DNA of 44,052 nucleotides, taken from positions 1 to 44,052 of IMG/VR virus record IMGVR_UViG_3300042463_000725. One strand, 5' to 3'. This stretch comes from a virus. This document shows, piece after piece, positions 15,029 to 22,966 of this stretch (position 1 is the stretch's first letter; the number at the start of each line of letters is the position of its first letter). The notes under the pieces were generated by a model. It ran no database searches. It had not been told where the DNA came from and saw nothing but the letters and a program-made list of their open reading frames with translations. The position numbers and the translations under genes are program-made.

Positions 15029-17407
15029 ATGGATTTATTTAATCCACCAAAATTATACAATTACAATATTATGATAAAAGACTTGGATTTCTCAAAGTTT
15101 GAAAACCCATCTATCCAGGTGGTGTGGGAAGACCTACAAGAAAATTTTACACAAGACAAGATGAAGAGTGTTAAACATTACTTTCAAAAGAAGTATAACA
15201 CTACAAACGTTAATGTTGTTACAAAAGTAAAAAATGTTGATACTGAAACTATGCAAACAGTTGATGTATCGATGAATATTACAGACGTTAACTATCAACT
15301 TGACTTACTTAAAAAATTCTTGGAATCCAAAGGTTATGGAGAACATCTTACAAGTATTCTTGAACTGAATAAAACAGTTGAGAATAAAATGAAAGAAGAC
15401 GATTCTGAAACAACGCAATTCAAAAAGTGGTATATTAGAAACATCGAGTTCTCCAACTTTTTATCATATGGTGAAAACCAAAGATTAAACTTTGATAAGT
15501 TAAATGGTATTGTTGTTGTTGAGTCAGATCCACCAAACTTTGGAGGAAAGACAGTACTTACGGTGGATTTACTTATGTTTTTATTTTTTAATGAAACAAC
15601 AAAAACATCAAAAGCTGAAGAAGTGTTTAACCGATTTACCGATAAAGACTCGGTAGTTGTAAAAGGTGAAATTACAATAGATGGTGAAGATTACATTATT
15701 GTAAGAAACATTGAGAGGAAAAAATCAAAGAAAGGTGAATGGAATGTTAAAACGGAACTAGACTTTTTTAAGAAACTACACGATGGTTCACTACAAAATT
15801 TTACTGGTGAACAAAGAAGGGAGACTGAAGCATTCATTAAAAACTCTATTGGGACCAAAGAGGATTTCTTAATGACGATTCTTACAACGGCAACAAACCT
15901 AGAAGAATTGTTGGAATCAAAACCAACAGCCAGAGGACAGGTCCTTTCAAGGTTTATGGGTCTTGAGTTTTTAAAGAAAAAAGAAGAAGTTGCAAAAGAA
16001 ATTTATTCATCATTTAGTAAATCAAAATTATCAAATATCTATAATTCTGAAGAGTTAAAACAAGATATTGAATCTTTTGAAAATAAAATTACCGAATTAG
16101 AGGGACAAATTGAAACCTTTAAAGGTGAAGTAAAAGAAATTGAAGACGGTATTGCAAAAGGAAAAGATTATAGAGACTCAATGTTAAAGAAAAAACATTC
16201 TGACATTGATAAAGAGATTGCTTTACTTAATCCAGAAAAGACAAAAGAACAAATCGAAACTTTAAATAAAGAAAAACAATCTTATGTTGACCTACTTTCA
16301 ACATTAAAGGTTGTTGAACCAAAACAATTCTATGAAGAAGACAAACACGATAAAGTAAAAGAAGATTACAAAAATAAATTCCAATCAAAAATTGAACTTG
16401 AAACTAAAATTTCTGAAATAGAAAAATTAAAGTCAGAAGTTGATGGTGGTATTAAATGTGAACACTGTGGTATTGAACTTATGAATGCTGCAATTACACA
16501 ACAAAAAATATCTGAACTTGATGGATTTACACAACAAAAAAAGGTTATTGAAAAGTTAATGACGGGTTTATCCAACAAAGAAAAAGAGTTTGTTGAAACA
16601 AAAAGACAATTTGATGAGTATGAGAAAAACAAACTTATTAAAGAAAAATACGATTTGAGTGTTGAAAGTTGTGATTTGAAAATTTCTGGTCTGGAAGATA
16701 AATTAAAAAGGTGGGGTGATGTTCAGGATAAAATTAAGACCAACGACCAGATTGACTCAATGTTAATCAAAGCAGATTTAAAACTTGAAAGTTATGACAG
16801 ACTTTTAAAAGAAAAGAATAACCAGATTAGTTCAAATGAATATAGTATTAAATCAAACCAGGAAAAGATTACCAATAACAAGAACTTGATTGTAAAAATT
16901 AAAGAAGAAGAAAGTAAGGATAAGATCTATAAGATGTATCTTGAAAGTTATGGTAAAAATGGTGTTAGTAAAATCATTATGAAGACTATGATGCCACTTA
17001 TTAATTCTGAACTACAAAGATTGATGGAAGATTCTTGTTATTTTAAATTAGAAATTAGAATTAATGATAAATCCGAGGTTGAGTTTATCCAGGTAGACAA
17101 CAATAGCGGTATTGAGAAATTAATGACTTCCGGATCTGGTTACGAAAAAACAATAGCATCACTTGCATTAAGATCTGTTTTAAGTAAGGTATGTTCGCTA
17201 CCAAAACCGAATGTGGTAGTTTTTGATGAAGTATTTGGTAAAATAAGTAATGACAATTTAGAAATGATTTTTGAATTTTTTGTGAAAATTAAAGATTATT
17301 TTGATAAAATCTTCCTTATATCACACAACCCAATGATAAATCAATGTAGTGACACTATTGTAAAGATTTCAAAACAAAATAATATTTCAAAACTTTTGGT
17401 AAATTAA
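15029..17407 (+). CDS. SbcC/Rad50-like recombination ATPase (T4 gp46-like)
   Basis: 792 aa. After an unusual N-terminal extension of about 135 residues, the ABC/SMC core begins at IRNIEFSNFLSYGENQ. The P-loop is SDPPNFGGKTVL (166-177), keeping GKT but lacking the first Gly of the usual GxxxxGK[ST]. Long coiled coils flank a zinc hook CEHC (C477, C480). The signature motif is near residue 701 (SGSGYEKTIASL), Walker B is VVVFDEVFG near 727-735, and the switch His lies in LISHNP. It partners with the gp47-like nuclease at 12852. An internal Met at 15071 is an alternative start that would remove only 14 residues. Confidence 0.92.
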   Translation: MDLFNPPKLYNYNIMIKDLDFSKFENPSIQVVWEDLQENFTQDKMKSVKHYFQKKYNTTNVNVVTKVKNVDTETMQTVDVSMNITDVNYQLDLLKKFLESKGYGEHLTSILELNKTVENKMKEDDSETTQFKKWYIRNIEFSNFLSYGENQRLNFDKLNGIVVVESDPPNFGGKTVLTVDLLMFLFFNETTKTSKAEEVFNRFTDKDSVVVKGEITIDGEDYIIVRNIERKKSKKGEWNVKTELDFFKKLHDGSLQNFTGEQRRETEAFIKNSIGTKEDFLMTILTTATNLEELLESKPTARGQVLSRFMGLEFLKKKEEVAKEIYSSFSKSKLSNIYNSEELKQDIESFENKITELEGQIETFKGEVKEIEDGIAKGKDYRDSMLKKKHSDIDKEIALLNPEKTKEQIETLNKEKQSYVDLLSTLKVVEPKQFYEEDKHDKVKEDYKNKFQSKIELETKISEIEKLKSEVDGGIKCEHCGIELMNAAITQQKISELDGFTQQKKVIEKLMTGLSNKEKEFVETKRQFDEYEKNKLIKEKYDLSVESCDLKISGLEDKLKRWGDVQDKIKTNDQIDSMLIKADLKLESYDRLLKEKNNQISSNEYSIKSNQEKITNNKNLIVKIKEEESKDKIYKMYLESYGKNGVSKIIMKTMMPLINSELQRLMEDSCYFKLEIRINDKSEVEFIQVDNNSGIEKLMTSGSGYEKTIASLALRSVLSKVCSLPKPNVVVFDEVFGKISNDNLEMIFEFFVKIKDYFDKIFLISHNPMINQCSDTIVKISKQNNISKLLVN

Positions 17408-17426
17408 AATATTATTTGTAAATTTG
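17395..17426 (+). promoter_or_regulatory. Bacteroidota-type promoter (TTTG-N20-TAAATTTG)
   Basis: TTTG at 17395-17398, a 20-nt spacer and TAAATTTG at 17419-17426, with the ATG 23 nt further on. It would give the 17450 gene its own host-dependent transcript, independent of the upstream operon. Confidence 0.7.
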
Positions 17427-17449: not shown

Positions 17450-19879
17450 ATGAAAAAACTAACAATAACAGGACAAACACTAAATCAATTATATGTCTCT
17501 GAAGTAGAAAAAGATGTTGAAAATAGTTATAGACAATTTTTATCAACCAAAATTCCAGATATGATTTTTACATCACCATATTTATGTGATGGGTATGGTG
17601 TTTCAAAAAAACACAAAATAAGAATATTATGTGAATTTAAAAAAGACTTTGATTTTAGAAAAAAAAGTGATATAGTTATTGTACTGTGTCAGGTGATTGT
17701 CTATATTAAAAAATTTGTTTTAGATGGTACAAAAATTCCAAATATAGTTTTAGTTGGTGATAAAAATGAATGGTTTGTTTTACATGTAAATGAATTATTT
17801 AAATATTTAGATTTAGATATTGATTGGTCAATATCACCGTCTAGTGCTCACACAAATAAGGTTTTATTTGATTTATTAATGAATGACAATGAAATTAATC
17901 CATTTGTTTTTGATGTAACTCAGATTGATGAAATTGTTAGTAAAATAAAAAATCTTGCTAAAAATGTTGTAAGACTTGTTCCGATTACCCCAAAAAACAT
18001 GGTAGACGTTTTTACTCATTTTGAAAAAAACGTATTAGCAAAAAATAGTTTAAACACAAACCAGTTAGCAAATCTTTTTACCCAAATACTAATCAATCCT
18101 GACGATAACTACTTACATCCTGTTAAAAAAAGAAAAACAATTGTAACAAAAGCTTTTAACGAAGTTCCTGTAAAATCAAAAGAAGCATTTGAATCATTTT
18201 TTAGTCATTTTTCTAGGGAATACACACCAAGACAAAAAGAAGATCTTACTGCTGTTGTTGATAGACTAATCCAAGATGTAACAAGACGTAAACAAGGGGA
18301 GTTTTTTACACCAACAATATGGGTCGATAAAGCTCATGAATATATTTCATCGGTTTATGGTGAAGATTGGAAAGAAAAATATGTGGTATGGGATCCAGCC
18401 TGGGGTACTGGGAATTTAACTCGTGATTATAAGTTCAAAGAGTTATATGTGTCAACACTTAATTATTCAGATATTCAAACAGCAGAACAGATGTGTTATA
18501 ACCCTGAAGCGGTAAAGTTTCAGTTTGATTTTTTAAATGATGATTATGACTTTTTACCAAAAGGGTTAATAGATGCGATTGAGAGTGGTCGTGATATAAT
18601 TGTCTTAATGAATTCACCTTATGGTAAACCAACACCAAATAATAGTTTGTTAATGGAAAACAAATCAACAACTAAAGGTATGACAAATACTATTGTTGGT
18701 AACGAAATGAATGTTGAAAAAATGGGTATCGCAGCTTCTCAATTGTATTTACAATTTATTTTTAAATTACAAAAAATAAAATCTAACATTTGCATGTTCT
18801 CAACACCAGGATTTTTAACTCAAATATCTAATAAAAATTTTAGAAATAAATTTTTGTCAGAATACTCATTAGTTGATGGGTTTATTATGGACTCAGGAGA
18901 ATTTGCTGACATTAAATCTTGGGGTTTGACTTTTTCTATTCTGAAACCAATTGAAATTGAAAACAAGTACTCTTTTACATATGATATTTTAGAAAAAAAT
19001 GAAAATTTTGAAATCGTTAAAATTGGTGAAAAAATTATTTATAATACTGATGATAAAATAAATCTTTCTGAATGGATGGAAGAAAGTCTACCAAAAAACA
19101 ATATTACATTTCCTGTTTTAGAATCTGCTTTGGGTGTCTCAAACATTTTAAAAAAAGGATATAGTGACGCTATTGGTTATATTAATAACGACTCAAATAA
19201 CGTTCAACAACAAAATGTGGTACATTTAATGTCTGGTGTTTGTAAGGCAAACGGAAACAAACCAATTACTTCTAAAAATTTTGAAAGAATGGTGGTAGGA
19301 TTTTCCGCAAGAAAAGTCATTAAGAGATTTTGGATTGACGACAAAGATGAATTTATCAAACCAAATTGTGATACAGAAATTTTTAATAACTTCAAAGTAG
19401 ATTCGGTTGTCTATTCTTTATTTCATATCCATTCTTTTCAAACCTCAATGAGAAATGTTGAGTATAATTCTGAATTATGGGACATTAAAAATGAATTCTT
19501 TTGGATGTCAAAAGAAGAAATGATGGAACTTGCAAACAATAGTAACTACAACGAGTTGTATAGTGATGTTAGAACAGACAACAACAGATATGTTCACAAT
19601 TTACTATTTGGTGAAGAAAACATATACGAACAATTATCACCTGACGCAAAGTTAGTTTTAGATAAGGCGACTGAATTAGTGAGAATGTCCATGACCACGA
19701 GAAGTCATTTTGCGGATGATAATAATCACCTTAACAGTTGGGATGCTGGTTACGCACAACTTAAATTAGTATGGAAAGAGTATTTTCCTGAAGAATTTAA
19801 AGAGTTTAGACAACTTTATAAAAACTTGGAAGACAGAATGCGACCTTTAGTTTATGAACTTGGATTTTTATTAAAATAA
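17450..19879 (+). CDS. Nuclease-N6-adenine methyltransferase fusion (type IIG restriction-modification-like)
   Basis: 809 aa. The N-terminal region has a PD-(D/E)XK-like arrangement: E25, D47, the strand with E62-x-K64 (ILCEFKKD) and QVIVYIKKF (Q81, Y85), as in type I/IIG restriction nuclease domains. A helical segment leads to a methyltransferase core: RKQGEFFTP (281-288; motif X), WDPAWGTGNLT (314-324; motif I, SAM binding) and LMNSPYGKP (386-394; motif IV, usually NPPY). The C-terminal 350 residues could hold target recognition. It may methylate phage DNA, cut unmodified DNA, or both; whether the nuclease is active cannot be told from sequence. NSPY instead of NPPY is unusual. It has its own host-type promoter and stands next to C5 methyltransferases. 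Confidence 0.8.
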   Translation: MKKLTITGQTLNQLYVSEVEKDVENSYRQFLSTKIPDMIFTSPYLCDGYGVSKKHKIRILCEFKKDFDFRKKSDIVIVLCQVIVYIKKFVLDGTKIPNIVLVGDKNEWFVLHVNELFKYLDLDIDWSISPSSAHTNKVLFDLLMNDNEINPFVFDVTQIDEIVSKIKNLAKNVVRLVPITPKNMVDVFTHFEKNVLAKNSLNTNQLANLFTQILINPDDNYLHPVKKRKTIVTKAFNEVPVKSKEAFESFFSHFSREYTPRQKEDLTAVVDRLIQDVTRRKQGEFFTPTIWVDKAHEYISSVYGEDWKEKYVVWDPAWGTGNLTRDYKFKELYVSTLNYSDIQTAEQMCYNPEAVKFQFDFLNDDYDFLPKGLIDAIESGRDIIVLMNSPYGKPTPNNSLLMENKSTTKGMTNTIVGNEMNVEKMGIAASQLYLQFIFKLQKIKSNICMFSTPGFLTQISNKNFRNKFLSEYSLVDGFIMDSGEFADIKSWGLTFSILKPIEIENKYSFTYDILEKNENFEIVKIGEKIIYNTDDKINLSEWMEESLPKNNITFPVLESALGVSNILKKGYSDAIGYINNDSNNVQQQNVVHLMSGVCKANGNKPITSKNFERMVVGFSARKVIKRFWIDDKDEFIKPNCDTEIFNNFKVDSVVYSLFHIHSFQTSMRNVEYNSELWDIKNEFFWMSKEEMMELANNSNYNELYSDVRTDNNRYVHNLLFGEENIYEQLSPDAKLVLDKATELVRMSMTTRSHFADDNNHLNSWDAGYAQLKLVWKEYFPEEFKEFRQLYKNLEDRMRPLVYELGFLLK

Positions 19880-19932: not shown

Positions 19933-20469
19933 ATGAAATACTTACTATTCGTCTATCCTTGTAACGATACTTGGGATAAAAAAGAAACCAACCTTAAAAT
20001 AGCAGAAGAACTATCAACAATTTCAAAATCTGATGATATTACTTTTGTTTATGGAGACAATCACACCATATTCCATTTTGATTCTGATATGTGCCAACCA
20101 GAACTTACAATCTATATTGATTTAATATACGATGAATCGCCAGATTTTATGTACGTACTTGTCCAGACCTCAAAGACAATCACATCAAATATGCTTCCAG
20201 CACATTTGGAACATTTAAAGAAATTAAATAAGAAAGGAAGGAAACCAAAAACACAAAATCGCGTTAAAGAAATATTTATAGATAAAAACCCAGCTTTCGA
20301 TATCAAGAAATTTATGGAAGAACACAACGCTCGTGTCGAAGAATTTGTAAAAAATCAAATATGTGATTTGACTCTTGACGAAATTTTAGATAAGATTTCA
20401 AGTCAAGGTATGGAATCACTCACAAGAGCTGAAAAAGACAAATTAGATGAATACTCAAAACAAATATAA
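19933..20469 (+). CDS. Hypothetical protein preceding the sigma factor
   Basis: 178 aa. The N-terminal half (KYLLFVYPCNDTWDKKETNLKI) looks like an alpha/beta fold. The last 33 residues (from LTLDEILDKISSQGMESLTR onward) match a C-terminal tail motif I recall from Bacteroidota rhomboid-family and other proteins (LDxILDKISxxGxxSLTxxEKxxL). In a phage this suggests a host-derived interaction tail. No membrane helices or catalytic residues are evident. The stop at 20469 is one base before the sigma ATG at 20471, so co-expression is very likely. Function unknown; a regulator or partner of the sigma factor is a speculation worth testing. Confidence 0.65.
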   Translation: MKYLLFVYPCNDTWDKKETNLKIAEELSTISKSDDITFVYGDNHTIFHFDSDMCQPELTIYIDLIYDESPDFMYVLVQTSKTITSNMLPAHLEHLKKLNKKGRKPKTQNRVKEIFIDKNPAFDIKKFMEEHNARVEEFVKNQICDLTLDEILDKISSQGMESLTRAEKDKLDEYSKQI

Positions 20470-20470
20470 T

Positions 20471-21271
20471 ATGAAGGAAAAAAACCAAGGAGCGCCTATT
20501 AACCAGGACGAAATTTATCACTATCTTAAAGATATTAGAAAGATTAAGGTTATGACACCTGATCGTGAAAAACAATTGGCGTTAAAAATGAAATCAGATG
20601 AAATTTCTGATAGAGAAAGAAAAAAAATAGAAGAAGAACTATTAGAAGGTAATTTACGATTTGTAATTACTGTTGCAAAACAATACCAAAATCAAGGTCT
20701 TGATTTACCAGACCTTATTGCTGAAGGAAACTTAGGTCTTATGAAAGCAATTAAAAACTTTGATTGGAATAAAGACTTGAGATTCATTTCATATGCAGTA
20801 TGGTGGGTTAAACAATCAATTATCCAATCATTAAATGATAACGCCAGAACAATTAGACTACCAGTTAATGTTGTCCAGGATTTACATAAAGCAAAAAAAG
20901 AAGTTGAGCAGACAGGTAAAAAACTTGATGATAAATTTGCTGGGTTACCTTCTATTATAAATCTTGATATGAATATCAACGAAGATGGTGATACTCTTAT
21001 TGACTTAATCGAAAACCACGATGCTGTTGCACCTGATGCTGGATTTAATACCAAAGACATTCTAAAGGACAAGTTGTTATCGTTACTTAATGTATTAGAC
21101 GACCGTGAAAAATCTATCATCGGAGACTACTTTGGTCTTACGGGCACACCAAGAACATTAGAAGATATTGGTTCTGACTTTAACCTTACAAAAGAAAGGG
21201 TAAGACAGATAAAAGAGAAAGCTCTTCGTAGACTTCGTAATGAATCATCTGAATTATTTGACTATCTATGA
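20471..21271 (+). CDS. Sigma-70 family RNA polymerase sigma factor (RpoD-like)
   Basis: 266 aa from ATG 20471 (an in-frame ATG at 20447 lies inside the previous gene). Region 1.2/2.1 begins near residue 11. Region 2 spans about 59-125 with NLRFVITVAKQYQNQGLDL, DLIAEGNLGLMKAI and FISYAVWWVKQSI, very close to Bacteroidota RpoD. Region 3 is shortened. Region 4 (208-258) ends in the helix-turn-helix LTKERVRQIKEKALRRLR. It would redirect host RNA polymerase, most plausibly to the TATTTATAA promoters in this window (inference, T4 gp55-like logic). The gene overlaps the C5 methyltransferase by 4 nt (ATGA). Clear resemblance to the host primary sigma suggests capture from a Bacteroidota bacterium. 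Confidence 0.9.
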   Translation: MKEKNQGAPINQDEIYHYLKDIRKIKVMTPDREKQLALKMKSDEISDRERKKIEEELLEGNLRFVITVAKQYQNQGLDLPDLIAEGNLGLMKAIKNFDWNKDLRFISYAVWWVKQSIIQSLNDNARTIRLPVNVVQDLHKAKKEVEQTGKKLDDKFAGLPSIINLDMNINEDGDTLIDLIENHDAVAPDAGFNTKDILKDKLLSLLNVLDDREKSIIGDYFGLTGTPRTLEDIGSDFNLTKERVRQIKEKALRRLRNESSELFDYL

Positions 21272-22086
21272 TGAATGTACTAAGTCTTTTTGATGGGATG
21301 TCCTGTGGACAGATTGCACTTAACAAAGCTGGTATTAAGTACGATAAATACTTTTCATCTGAAATAGATAAGTTTGCAATACAAGTAACCCAACATAACT
21401 ATCCGGAAACAATCCAGATTGGTGATGTAACACAAGTAAAAGGTTCTGACCTACCACAAATAGATTTACTTATTGGTGGTAGTCCTTGTCAGGGGTTTTC
21501 ATTTGCTGGTAAACAATTAAATTTTGACGATGAGCGAAGTAAATTGTTTTTTGAGTTTGTAAGGTTAATGGAAGAATGTAAACCAAAGTACTTTCTACTT
21601 GAGAATGTTGTAATGAAAAAAGAATATGAGGATGTTATAACAGAACATATGGGTGTAAAACCAATTCTTATAAATAGTAATCTTGTATCAGCACAAAATA
21701 GGAAAAGACTTTACTGGACCAACATACCAAACATAGAACAACCTGAAGATTCAAACATAACAATGTCTAACATACTTTTAAGTGGACAACACATAATTGT
21801 ATCAAAACAAAAAAAGGAACATAAACCTGGTGGTGATAAGTCAGCAACATTACTTGCAAGAGACTATAAAGGATTTGGTAATCAACAAATGAGTGGTGTT
21901 ATGGATAATGGTAATATTAGAATGTTAACACCAGTAGAATACGAGAGATTACAAAATGTTCCAGATAATTATTCTTCAGTTGCTTCAAACACTCAAAGAT
22001 ATAAAATGTTAGGAAATGGGTGGACCGTAGGTGTTATAGAACATATATTCAAAAATATGGAATATGAATGTATTGAGTCTATTTGA
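21268..22086 (+). CDS. DNA cytosine-5 methyltransferase (first of tandem pair)
   Basis: 272 aa. C5-MTase motifs in order: motif I LSLFDGMSCGQIAL (5-18), SEID (31-34), motif IV GGSPCQGFS with catalytic C74, motif VI LLENVV (E112), motif VIII QNRKRLYW (143-150), a short target-recognition region around residues 175-215, and motif X MLGNGWTVGVIEHIF. It methylates cytosine C5 in a sequence set by the short recognition region; this would protect phage DNA from host restriction. The compact form and DGMSCGQ sequence resemble Dnmt3-like phage enzymes. It overlaps the sigma gene by 4 nt upstream and its paralogue by 23 nt downstream. Confidence 0.93.
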   Translation: MMNVLSLFDGMSCGQIALNKAGIKYDKYFSSEIDKFAIQVTQHNYPETIQIGDVTQVKGSDLPQIDLLIGGSPCQGFSFAGKQLNFDDERSKLFFEFVRLMEECKPKYFLLENVVMKKEYEDVITEHMGVKPILINSNLVSAQNRKRLYWTNIPNIEQPEDSNITMSNILLSGQHIIVSKQKKEHKPGGDKSATLLARDYKGFGNQQMSGVMDNGNIRMLTPVEYERLQNVPDNYSSVASNTQRYKMLGNGWTVGVIEHIFKNMEYECIESI

Positions 22087-22966
22087 TGGGGTTTCCTGTG
22101 GCCAACTGGCATTACAAAGAGCTGGTGTCGAAGTAGAAAACTATTTTGCTTCTGAAATTGATAAACACGCAATACAGGTTACACAGCACCATTTCCCAAA
22201 CACAGTTCAGTTAGGAAGCGTAGTTGGTTTAGACACCTCAACATTACCAACGATTGATTTATTAATTGGGGGATCACCTTGTCAGTCTTTTAGTAGATCT
22301 GGTGATAATACAGGTTTTGACGGTAAGAGTGGTTTATTTTGGGAATATGTTAGAGTATTAAATGAAGTTAAACCAACCTATTTCTTACTTGAAAATGTTG
22401 TAATGAAAAAGGAATGGGAAAATATTATAACTGAAGCTATTGGTGTTGAACCAGTAATGATTGATAGTAAATTTTTTTCAGCACAAAAAAGACAAAGGCT
22501 TTATTGGACAAACATCCCACTAGATAAAAACATACAAGATAGAAATATAAACATATTAGACATCTTAATTCCAATCGGGGATGAAAAAATAATCAATGAC
22601 CATTTAGTTGTTTTAGATATTAACGATGGTGTATTTAAGATAAGGAATGGAACTAAAACTGGTTATCTGTATGCTAAACACGGTGACTGTGTTAATTTGG
22701 AAGTTCCAAAAAGTAAAACAAGAAGAGGTAGAGTAAGTAATGGTAAAACAAATACGTTAAATACCGCCTGTAACTATGGTGTTGTTGTTAATGGTAATCT
22801 GCGTGAGTTAAATATAACAGAATACGAAAGACTACAAACACTTCCAGATGGTTATACATCACTTATATCTTTAAACCAAAGAAAAAATGTTTTGGGTAAT
22901 GGTTGGACAGTTGATGTAATTTCTTATATATTTCAAAATATTTATCAAAAAAGTTTGGTAGATTAG
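22064..22966 (+). CDS. DNA cytosine-5 methyltransferase (second of tandem pair)
   Basis: 300 aa. The same motif set as its neighbour: LSLFDGVSCGQLAL, SEIDKHAIQVTQHHF, GGSPCQSFS (C73), LLENVVMKKEWE (E110), QKRQRLYW and VLGNGWTVDVISYIF. It starts inside the 3' end of the first methyltransferase (23-nt overlap), and the two starts are nearly the same sequence, indicating tandem duplication. The target-recognition region (about residues 155-255) is clearly different and about 30 residues longer, with the basic SKTRRGRVSNGK segment, so a different target site is expected (inference). It is followed by the host-type promoter for a structured RNA. Confidence 0.93.
   Translation: MNVLSLFDGVSCGQLALQRAGVEVENYFASEIDKHAIQVTQHHFPNTVQLGSVVGLDTSTLPTIDLLIGGSPCQSFSRSGDNTGFDGKSGLFWEYVRVLNEVKPTYFLLENVVMKKEWENIITEAIGVEPVMIDSKFFSAQKRQRLYWTNIPLDKNIQDRNINILDILIPIGDEKIINDHLVVLDINDGVFKIRNGTKTGYLYAKHGDCVNLEVPKSKTRRGRVSNGKTNTLNTACNYGVVVNGNLRELNITEYERLQTLPDGYTSLISLNQRKNVLGNGWTVDVISYIFQNIYQKSLVD

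Follow-up and report, generated by a model that had tools for sequence, protein, structure and literature searches.

The gene, its neighbors and its predicted domains

The stretch of DNA analyzed here, hereafter the window, is a virus record of 44,052 bases with a G+C content of 29.7%. An open reading frame on the plus strand (17450-19879) starts with ATG and encodes an 809-aa protein, which family comparison, a structural model and a PDB match to BpuSI identify as a probable Type IIG-like restriction-modification protein. It is preceded by an SbcC/Rad50-like gene (15029-17407, plus strand; recognized by Pfam SbcC_Walker_B below the gathering score and by site comparison) and followed by a DUF6576 gene (19933-20469, plus strand; PF20216) and a conserved sigma-70 factor gene (20447-21271, plus strand; Pfam). 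Two tandem Dcm-like cytosine-C5 methyltransferase genes lie beside the sigma factor (21268-22966); related phages have two, three or other combinations of such genes, and one relative, L002, carries a GIY-YIG-like ORF upstream of its own (L002:11484-12107). A motif match places a promoter-like site, TTTG-N20-TAAATTTG (17395-17426, plus strand), 31 nt 5′ of the ATG, a consensus which we take to be of the Bacteroidota type. Of the 55 window genes, 4 have TAnnTTTG 26-34 nt 5′ of the start, where 0.33 would be expected (P 0.0005), while over the whole window neither this element alone (70 seen vs. 83) nor the general promoter pattern (10 seen, 5.96 expected) is enriched, so that the promoter signal in the window consists only in position before starts. 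Given this enrichment and the site before the ATG, the gene likely has its own promoter, as the original prediction had proposed.

The N-terminal residues 1-147 (17450-17890, plus strand) form a putative PD-(D/E)XK-type nuclease domain. Its residues D47, E62, K64, Q81 and Y85, noted earlier as a nuclease-like pattern, show no variation among the 38 non-redundant family members and are also invariant in an N-terminal alignment of 39 sequences, a conservation that, judged from these alignments, exceeds chance. Over ten pairs the dN/dS of the domain ranges from 0 to 0.24, consistent with purifying selection. Structure prediction of the N terminus, which had been suggested as a check, gave a mixed outcome: AF2 modeled the isolated domain with confidence (pLDDT 94.2, pTM 0.88) and in the expected order helix-strand-strand-strand-helix-strand, with D47 immediately preceding the second strand, E62 and K64 at the end of the third and Q81 and Y85 on the next helix, but the best Foldseek match in the PDB reached only E 0.028, and none was significant at E 0.001. 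The entries retrieved (bunyavirus endonucleases, RecU, Cas4-like, Hjc, MGME1 and FokI) are mostly nucleases that we assign to the PD-(D/E)XK type. Since this type dominates the list and no single match is significant, we regard the fold as strongly suggested by the model.

A helical connector, delimited approximately from the secondary structure of the model (about residues 148-285; 17891-18304, plus strand), leads to a predicted gamma-class adenine-N6 methyltransferase domain (about residues 286-500; 18305-18949, plus strand), and the protein ends in a conserved, mostly helical region (about residues 660-809; 19427-19876, plus strand) with dN/dS of 0.04-0.17. The SAM motif DPAWGTGN expected from the first reading of the gene is found at residues 315-322 (motif I; 18392-18415, plus strand) and recurs in 23 of the 38 relatives, with close variants in the others. 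As to METHYLTRANSFERASE and NSPY, the full-length model has a pLDDT of 87.7 and a pTM of 0.69. Its best PDB match is BpuSI (E 3e-9), followed by M.BseCI, CamA and M.EcoKI; as the TM-scores of these whole-protein matches on the query are low (0.17-0.27), the domain arrangement is tentative. Searched against a library of predicted viral proteins, the model comes closest to an “N-6 DNA Methylase” of an uncultured siphovirus (E 6e-24, TM 0.48-0.52), and 12 of 38 relatives match Pfam Eco57I (best E 1.2e-5). Together with the invariant motif and the predicted nuclease fold, the BpuSI match supports the proposed combination of nuclease and methyltransferase of the Type IIG kind.

Motif IV (residues 388-391; 18611-18622, plus strand) reads NSPY in the window protein. 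Across the family it reads NPPY in 35 members, NPPF in 1 and NSPY in 2, the second being L062, which lies far from the window protein in the tree and keeps the nuclease motif and an intact ORF. NSPY is one codon away from the family NPPY; only the first proline is altered and the essential asparagine is retained. The variant is real, but it was given too much weight in the original prediction; as a family-defining trait it is ruled out. No paper on NSPY methyltransferases was found among the open-access papers searched. In BpuSI, the motif IV asparagine is essential, as N406A abolished both methylation and cutting (PMC3817140), and we infer by analogy that an inactive NSPY enzyme would more probably be silent than a nuclease without its guard.

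Successive scans of viral contigs retrieved 12 and then 55 loci in overlapping sets, amounting to about 50 viral contigs, several of 270-540 kb. Full-length Type IIG proteins had been called rare in lytic phage; with this number of contigs, the family is not very rare. No member was found among 50,697 deposited phage records. One of the first 12 loci, L013, was dropped as a false relative, its match being short (25%) and its ORF looking like a DNA polymerase. Among bacterial genomes a single record matched, from Filobacillus milosensis (full-length alignment, 38% identity), where the gene is flanked by ORFs that read from their translations as HsdR, HsdS and HsdM to one side and as McrC- and McrB-like to the other. 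Fourteen plasmid records matched, 11 of them (25-33% identity) along most of the query; the plasmid relatives inspected stand alone and are annotated “hypothetical protein.” The window protein has no Pfam match, NCBIfam and PHROGs give chance-level scores, and PADLOC returns only weak SIR2-named hits (E 0.0004) that we judged spurious, as just 2 of 38 relatives share them and the model has no such domain. A single-sequence search of PDB chains gave noise only, and a profile search one weak Type I methyltransferase (E 0.037), while some relatives weakly match Eco57I or PADLOC MTase_II/IIG. The best reading is that of a divergent Type IIG-like enzyme unseen by the Pfam, NCBIfam and PHROG models. 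Two relatives have unusual reading frames. At L031:5965-8418, an in-frame TGA stands where relatives have Trp in motif I, and code 4 lengthens the ORFs of this locus greatly (to 895 and 817 aa), so that this phage may read TGA as tryptophan. At L053:5980-8441, the gene is broken around residue 160, between the nuclease domain and the remainder, which may reflect either a separate nuclease gene or a frameshift.

Exchange of a putative specificity cassette and the fused and split forms

L002/L014, the closest relative, lies in a nearly identical stretch of genome. Along the gene, DNA identity between the window and L002 starts at 98-100% (residues 1-200), drops to about 50% (residues 390-640) and recovers to 97% at the end. 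The same breakpoint pattern is seen in DNA of three more pairs (L018/L032, L024/L041 and L046/L062). Over all pairs, identity in the N-terminal region correlates with that in the C-terminal region at r=0.88, vs. r=0.34 with the middle. After removal of near-duplicate contigs, all 10 pairs with N-terminal regions more than 85% identical had middles of 28-47% identity, so that backbones 85-98% identical bear cassettes 28-47% identical; in L016/L020, the middle module is more alike than the backbone (68% vs. 61%). DNA identity and these correlations thus delimit an exchangeable cassette at about residues 388-650 (18611-19399, plus strand), made up of the C-terminal part of the methyltransferase and the putative target-recognition region. 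As judged from these sequence comparisons, residues ~390-650 are a hypervariable, exchangeable region and a putative specificity cassette, which would contact DNA.

In 13 relatives, the enzyme is split into two genes at the same point, directly after the last strand of the methyltransferase, corresponding to about residue 498-501 of the window protein (18943-18954, plus strand). The gap between the halves is mostly short, and several second genes have a TAnnTTTG site of their own. On one contig (L008:2252-3301, the same contig as L033), an opposite-strand ORF that reads from its translation as GIY-YIG-like lies between the two halves. Changes between the fused and split states number at least 8 on the backbone tree and 4 on the cassette tree, both of which are quick trees with several weak branches. 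In L018/L032 and L024/L041, the backbones are nearly identical and one member is fused, the other split. The lower number of changes on the cassette tree and these discordant pairs suggest that the fused or split state moves largely with the cassette.

Type IIG enzymes whose S part is fused at the C terminus or forms a separate subunit are known, with domain exchange shifting both activities together (PMC4081073). TRD exchange has likewise been described for the S gene of a Type IIG enzyme in Helicobacter pylori (PMC3077401). We found no description in the literature of fused and split forms interconverting by cassette exchange within one family. The two-gene relatives resemble Type IIG systems with a separate S subunit (BcgI, H. 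pylori Type IIG) in having an RM-like and a recognition-like gene. They differ in that the window family includes both fused and split forms, with the break between methyltransferase and recognition region, and in that the exchange extends into the C-terminal part of the methyltransferase; Methylase_S gave no match. RM.BpuSI (Type IIG/IIS/IIC, PDB 3s1s), the best fold match, likewise combines a nuclease and a gamma-class adenine methyltransferase in a single chain and has NPPY as its motif IV (PMC3817140), but it shares just 13% identity over the match, with a low TM-score, whereas the window protein is phage-borne and has NSPY. By description, the MmeI family (Type IIL) also joins nuclease, methyltransferase and recognition in one protein with widely diverged specificities (PMC4081073), yet MmeI is absent among the 50 best PDB matches listed for the window model, and its specificity diverged within one alignable family, whereas the window family replaces whole cassettes. 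The plasmid proteins of Ligilactobacillus, Lactobacillus, Virgibacillus and Fluviibacter are alike in being full-length relatives, but they stand alone on bacterial plasmids, and the Fluviibacter protein has no alignable D47. These comparisons of sequences and models lead us to regard the window family as a probable new form, at the family level, of Type IIG-like enzymes in large phages.

Probable restriction-modification cargo between sbcC and DUF6576

We compared 80 related loci fetched via the upstream sbcC, in 72 of which DUF6576 was recognized downstream. The junction between the two genes is in effect empty (42-98 bp) in 23 of these 72 loci and measures 0.5-4 kb in the others. The window enzyme family occupies 2 of the 80 loci, one of them the L002 contig, and further members found by protein search also follow sbcC; a constant link of the gene to sbcC was ruled out, as the family also adjoins other phage genes. 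Among 33 representative inserts inspected, 27 include a methyltransferase, recognized either from a family match or because it clusters with a member that has such a match. At L081:8431-10215, an EcoRI-like nuclease (phmmer to EcoRI, E 5.7e-108) lies beside an EcoRI-type methylase (2e-122) in the same junction. Other inserts pair a methyltransferase with REase_II (L107 and relatives; L098, E 1.7e-4) or with PDDEXK_11 (L087), and L091 contains a different Type IIG (PADLOC REase_MTase_IIG, E 6.6e-117). The latter (784 aa) shares with the window protein the junction and an order of nuclease-like N terminus, N6_Mtase and specificity domain, but belongs to another family, has a Methylase_S match and is 16% identical to it. 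Of all the evidence, this cargo context, as read from the genes at the junction, argues most strongly for a function of the window gene in restriction-modification. Neither the family nor a phage restriction cargo site was found described in the open-access papers searched. The cassette exchange, the natural two-gene forms and the apparent RM-rich cargo site go beyond the original prediction.

Some inserts are of other kinds. Those of L077, L095, L099, L111 and L144 are lone ORFs of 163-206 aa with no adjoining methyltransferase, two of which hit Type II nuclease models (L077, E 3e-6; L144, E 0.0019); a cognate methylase, if they have one, sits elsewhere. At L072:8646-9582, the cargo ORF at the same junction reads from its translation as TnpB/OrfB-type.

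The window is depleted of several short motifs, with 13 CATG seen vs. 98.9 expected, 38 GATC vs. 122.9 and 2 GAATTC vs. 13.7, and this avoidance suggests restriction pressure on the phage. The 17450-19879 gene, which makes up 5.5% of the window, holds both GAATTC sites (P 0.003) and 5 of the 13 CATG (P 0.0005), and the codon change to NSPY itself creates one of the two GAATTC; GATC shows no enrichment inside the gene. As CATG and GAATTC were chosen after their depletion had been seen, this distribution is supporting evidence only for a recent arrival of the gene.

Possible functions of the enzyme

We favor, with a probability of about 0.7, the reading that the product of this gene is a functional and self-contained restriction-modification enzyme of Type IIG-like kind, which a large phage carries as optional cargo, with its activity inferred from the comparisons above. 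In this model, the recognition module that follows motif IV would guide both methylation and cutting: the methyltransferase, with adenine as its presumed target base, would mark the phage's own DNA at N6, and the N-terminal nuclease would cut unmethylated DNA near the same site. Module exchange would then alter both activities together, so that the phage could change specificity safely in one step. The enzyme would act early after infection, methylating phage sites and cutting unmethylated competing DNA, and newly injected phage DNA would be spared if already methylated in the previous host cell. The most likely benefit would be that competing phages, plasmids or host DNA are destroyed while the carrier genome is protected. 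The self-protecting methylase and the weapon had been offered among the options; a role as protector and weapon together is supported as one option. Counted against it are the NSPY of this copy, the lack of a significant PDB match for the nuclease and the low TM-scores.

The enzyme might instead serve counter-defence, mainly marking phage DNA against host enzymes of the same site, with a nuclease that is secondary or silent. Phage methyltransferases are common, and those of gut phages are mostly orphan (PMC10477858). The depletion of CATG, GATC and GAATTC also suggests restriction pressure on the window phage. We nevertheless consider this reading unlikely, as the invariance of the nuclease residues in 38 of 38 members and the purifying selection would be unexpected for a silent domain, and nucleases occur at the same site in neighboring phages. 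Somewhat less probable still is that NSPY abolishes methylation and also cutting, for which AdoMet binding would be needed, leaving a copy that is dead or dying. The loss of both activities in BpuSI N406A (PMC3817140), the restriction of NSPY to 2 of 38 members and the GAATTC made by the codon change, which fits a recent event, would agree with such decay. On the other side, the essential asparagine is kept, the ORF is intact, and the distant L062 combines NSPY with an intact nuclease motif and ORF. The earlier suggestion of a degraded restriction enzyme is thus disfavored by the open frame, by the invariant catalytic residues and by a dN/dS of at most 0.25, a value that covers family pairs, the changes since the NSPY substitution being too few for an estimate of selection.

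The least probable reading, which we think improbable, is that of a selfish homing-type gene, whose nuclease would cut cargo-site alleles that do not have the gene and spread through repair without benefiting the phage. It would account for a site that is empty or filled depending on the phage, for the presence of the family at other genome places, for the GIY-YIG-like ORFs in some related loci and for the concentration of both GAATTC and 5 of 13 CATG in the gene, as in a recent arrival. However, a methyltransferase and a diversifying recognition region would be superfluous to such an element and would shift its target, and the site is occupied by unrelated RM families, not by one homing enzyme. 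A family search found no LAGLIDADG, GIY-YIG, HNH or related homing domain in the window protein.

Restriction-modification commonly figures as a defence of bacteria against phages, whereas the related large phages appear to carry complete systems as interchangeable cargo. We tentatively extend our preferred reading, at slightly below even odds, to an arsenal of swappable RM systems shared by large phages at one junction, in which the cassette would switch both specificity and the one-chain or two-subunit form, driven by conflict between co-infecting phages. The family is unannotated in the libraries searched, and its members therefore read “hypothetical protein.” It provides enzymes that are matched by nature but differ in their cassettes, both fused and split, and that would be useful for learning how specificity moves. 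Provided that the enzymes are active, these phages would use restriction and not only be its targets, and phage-phage exclusion by restriction would be directly testable.
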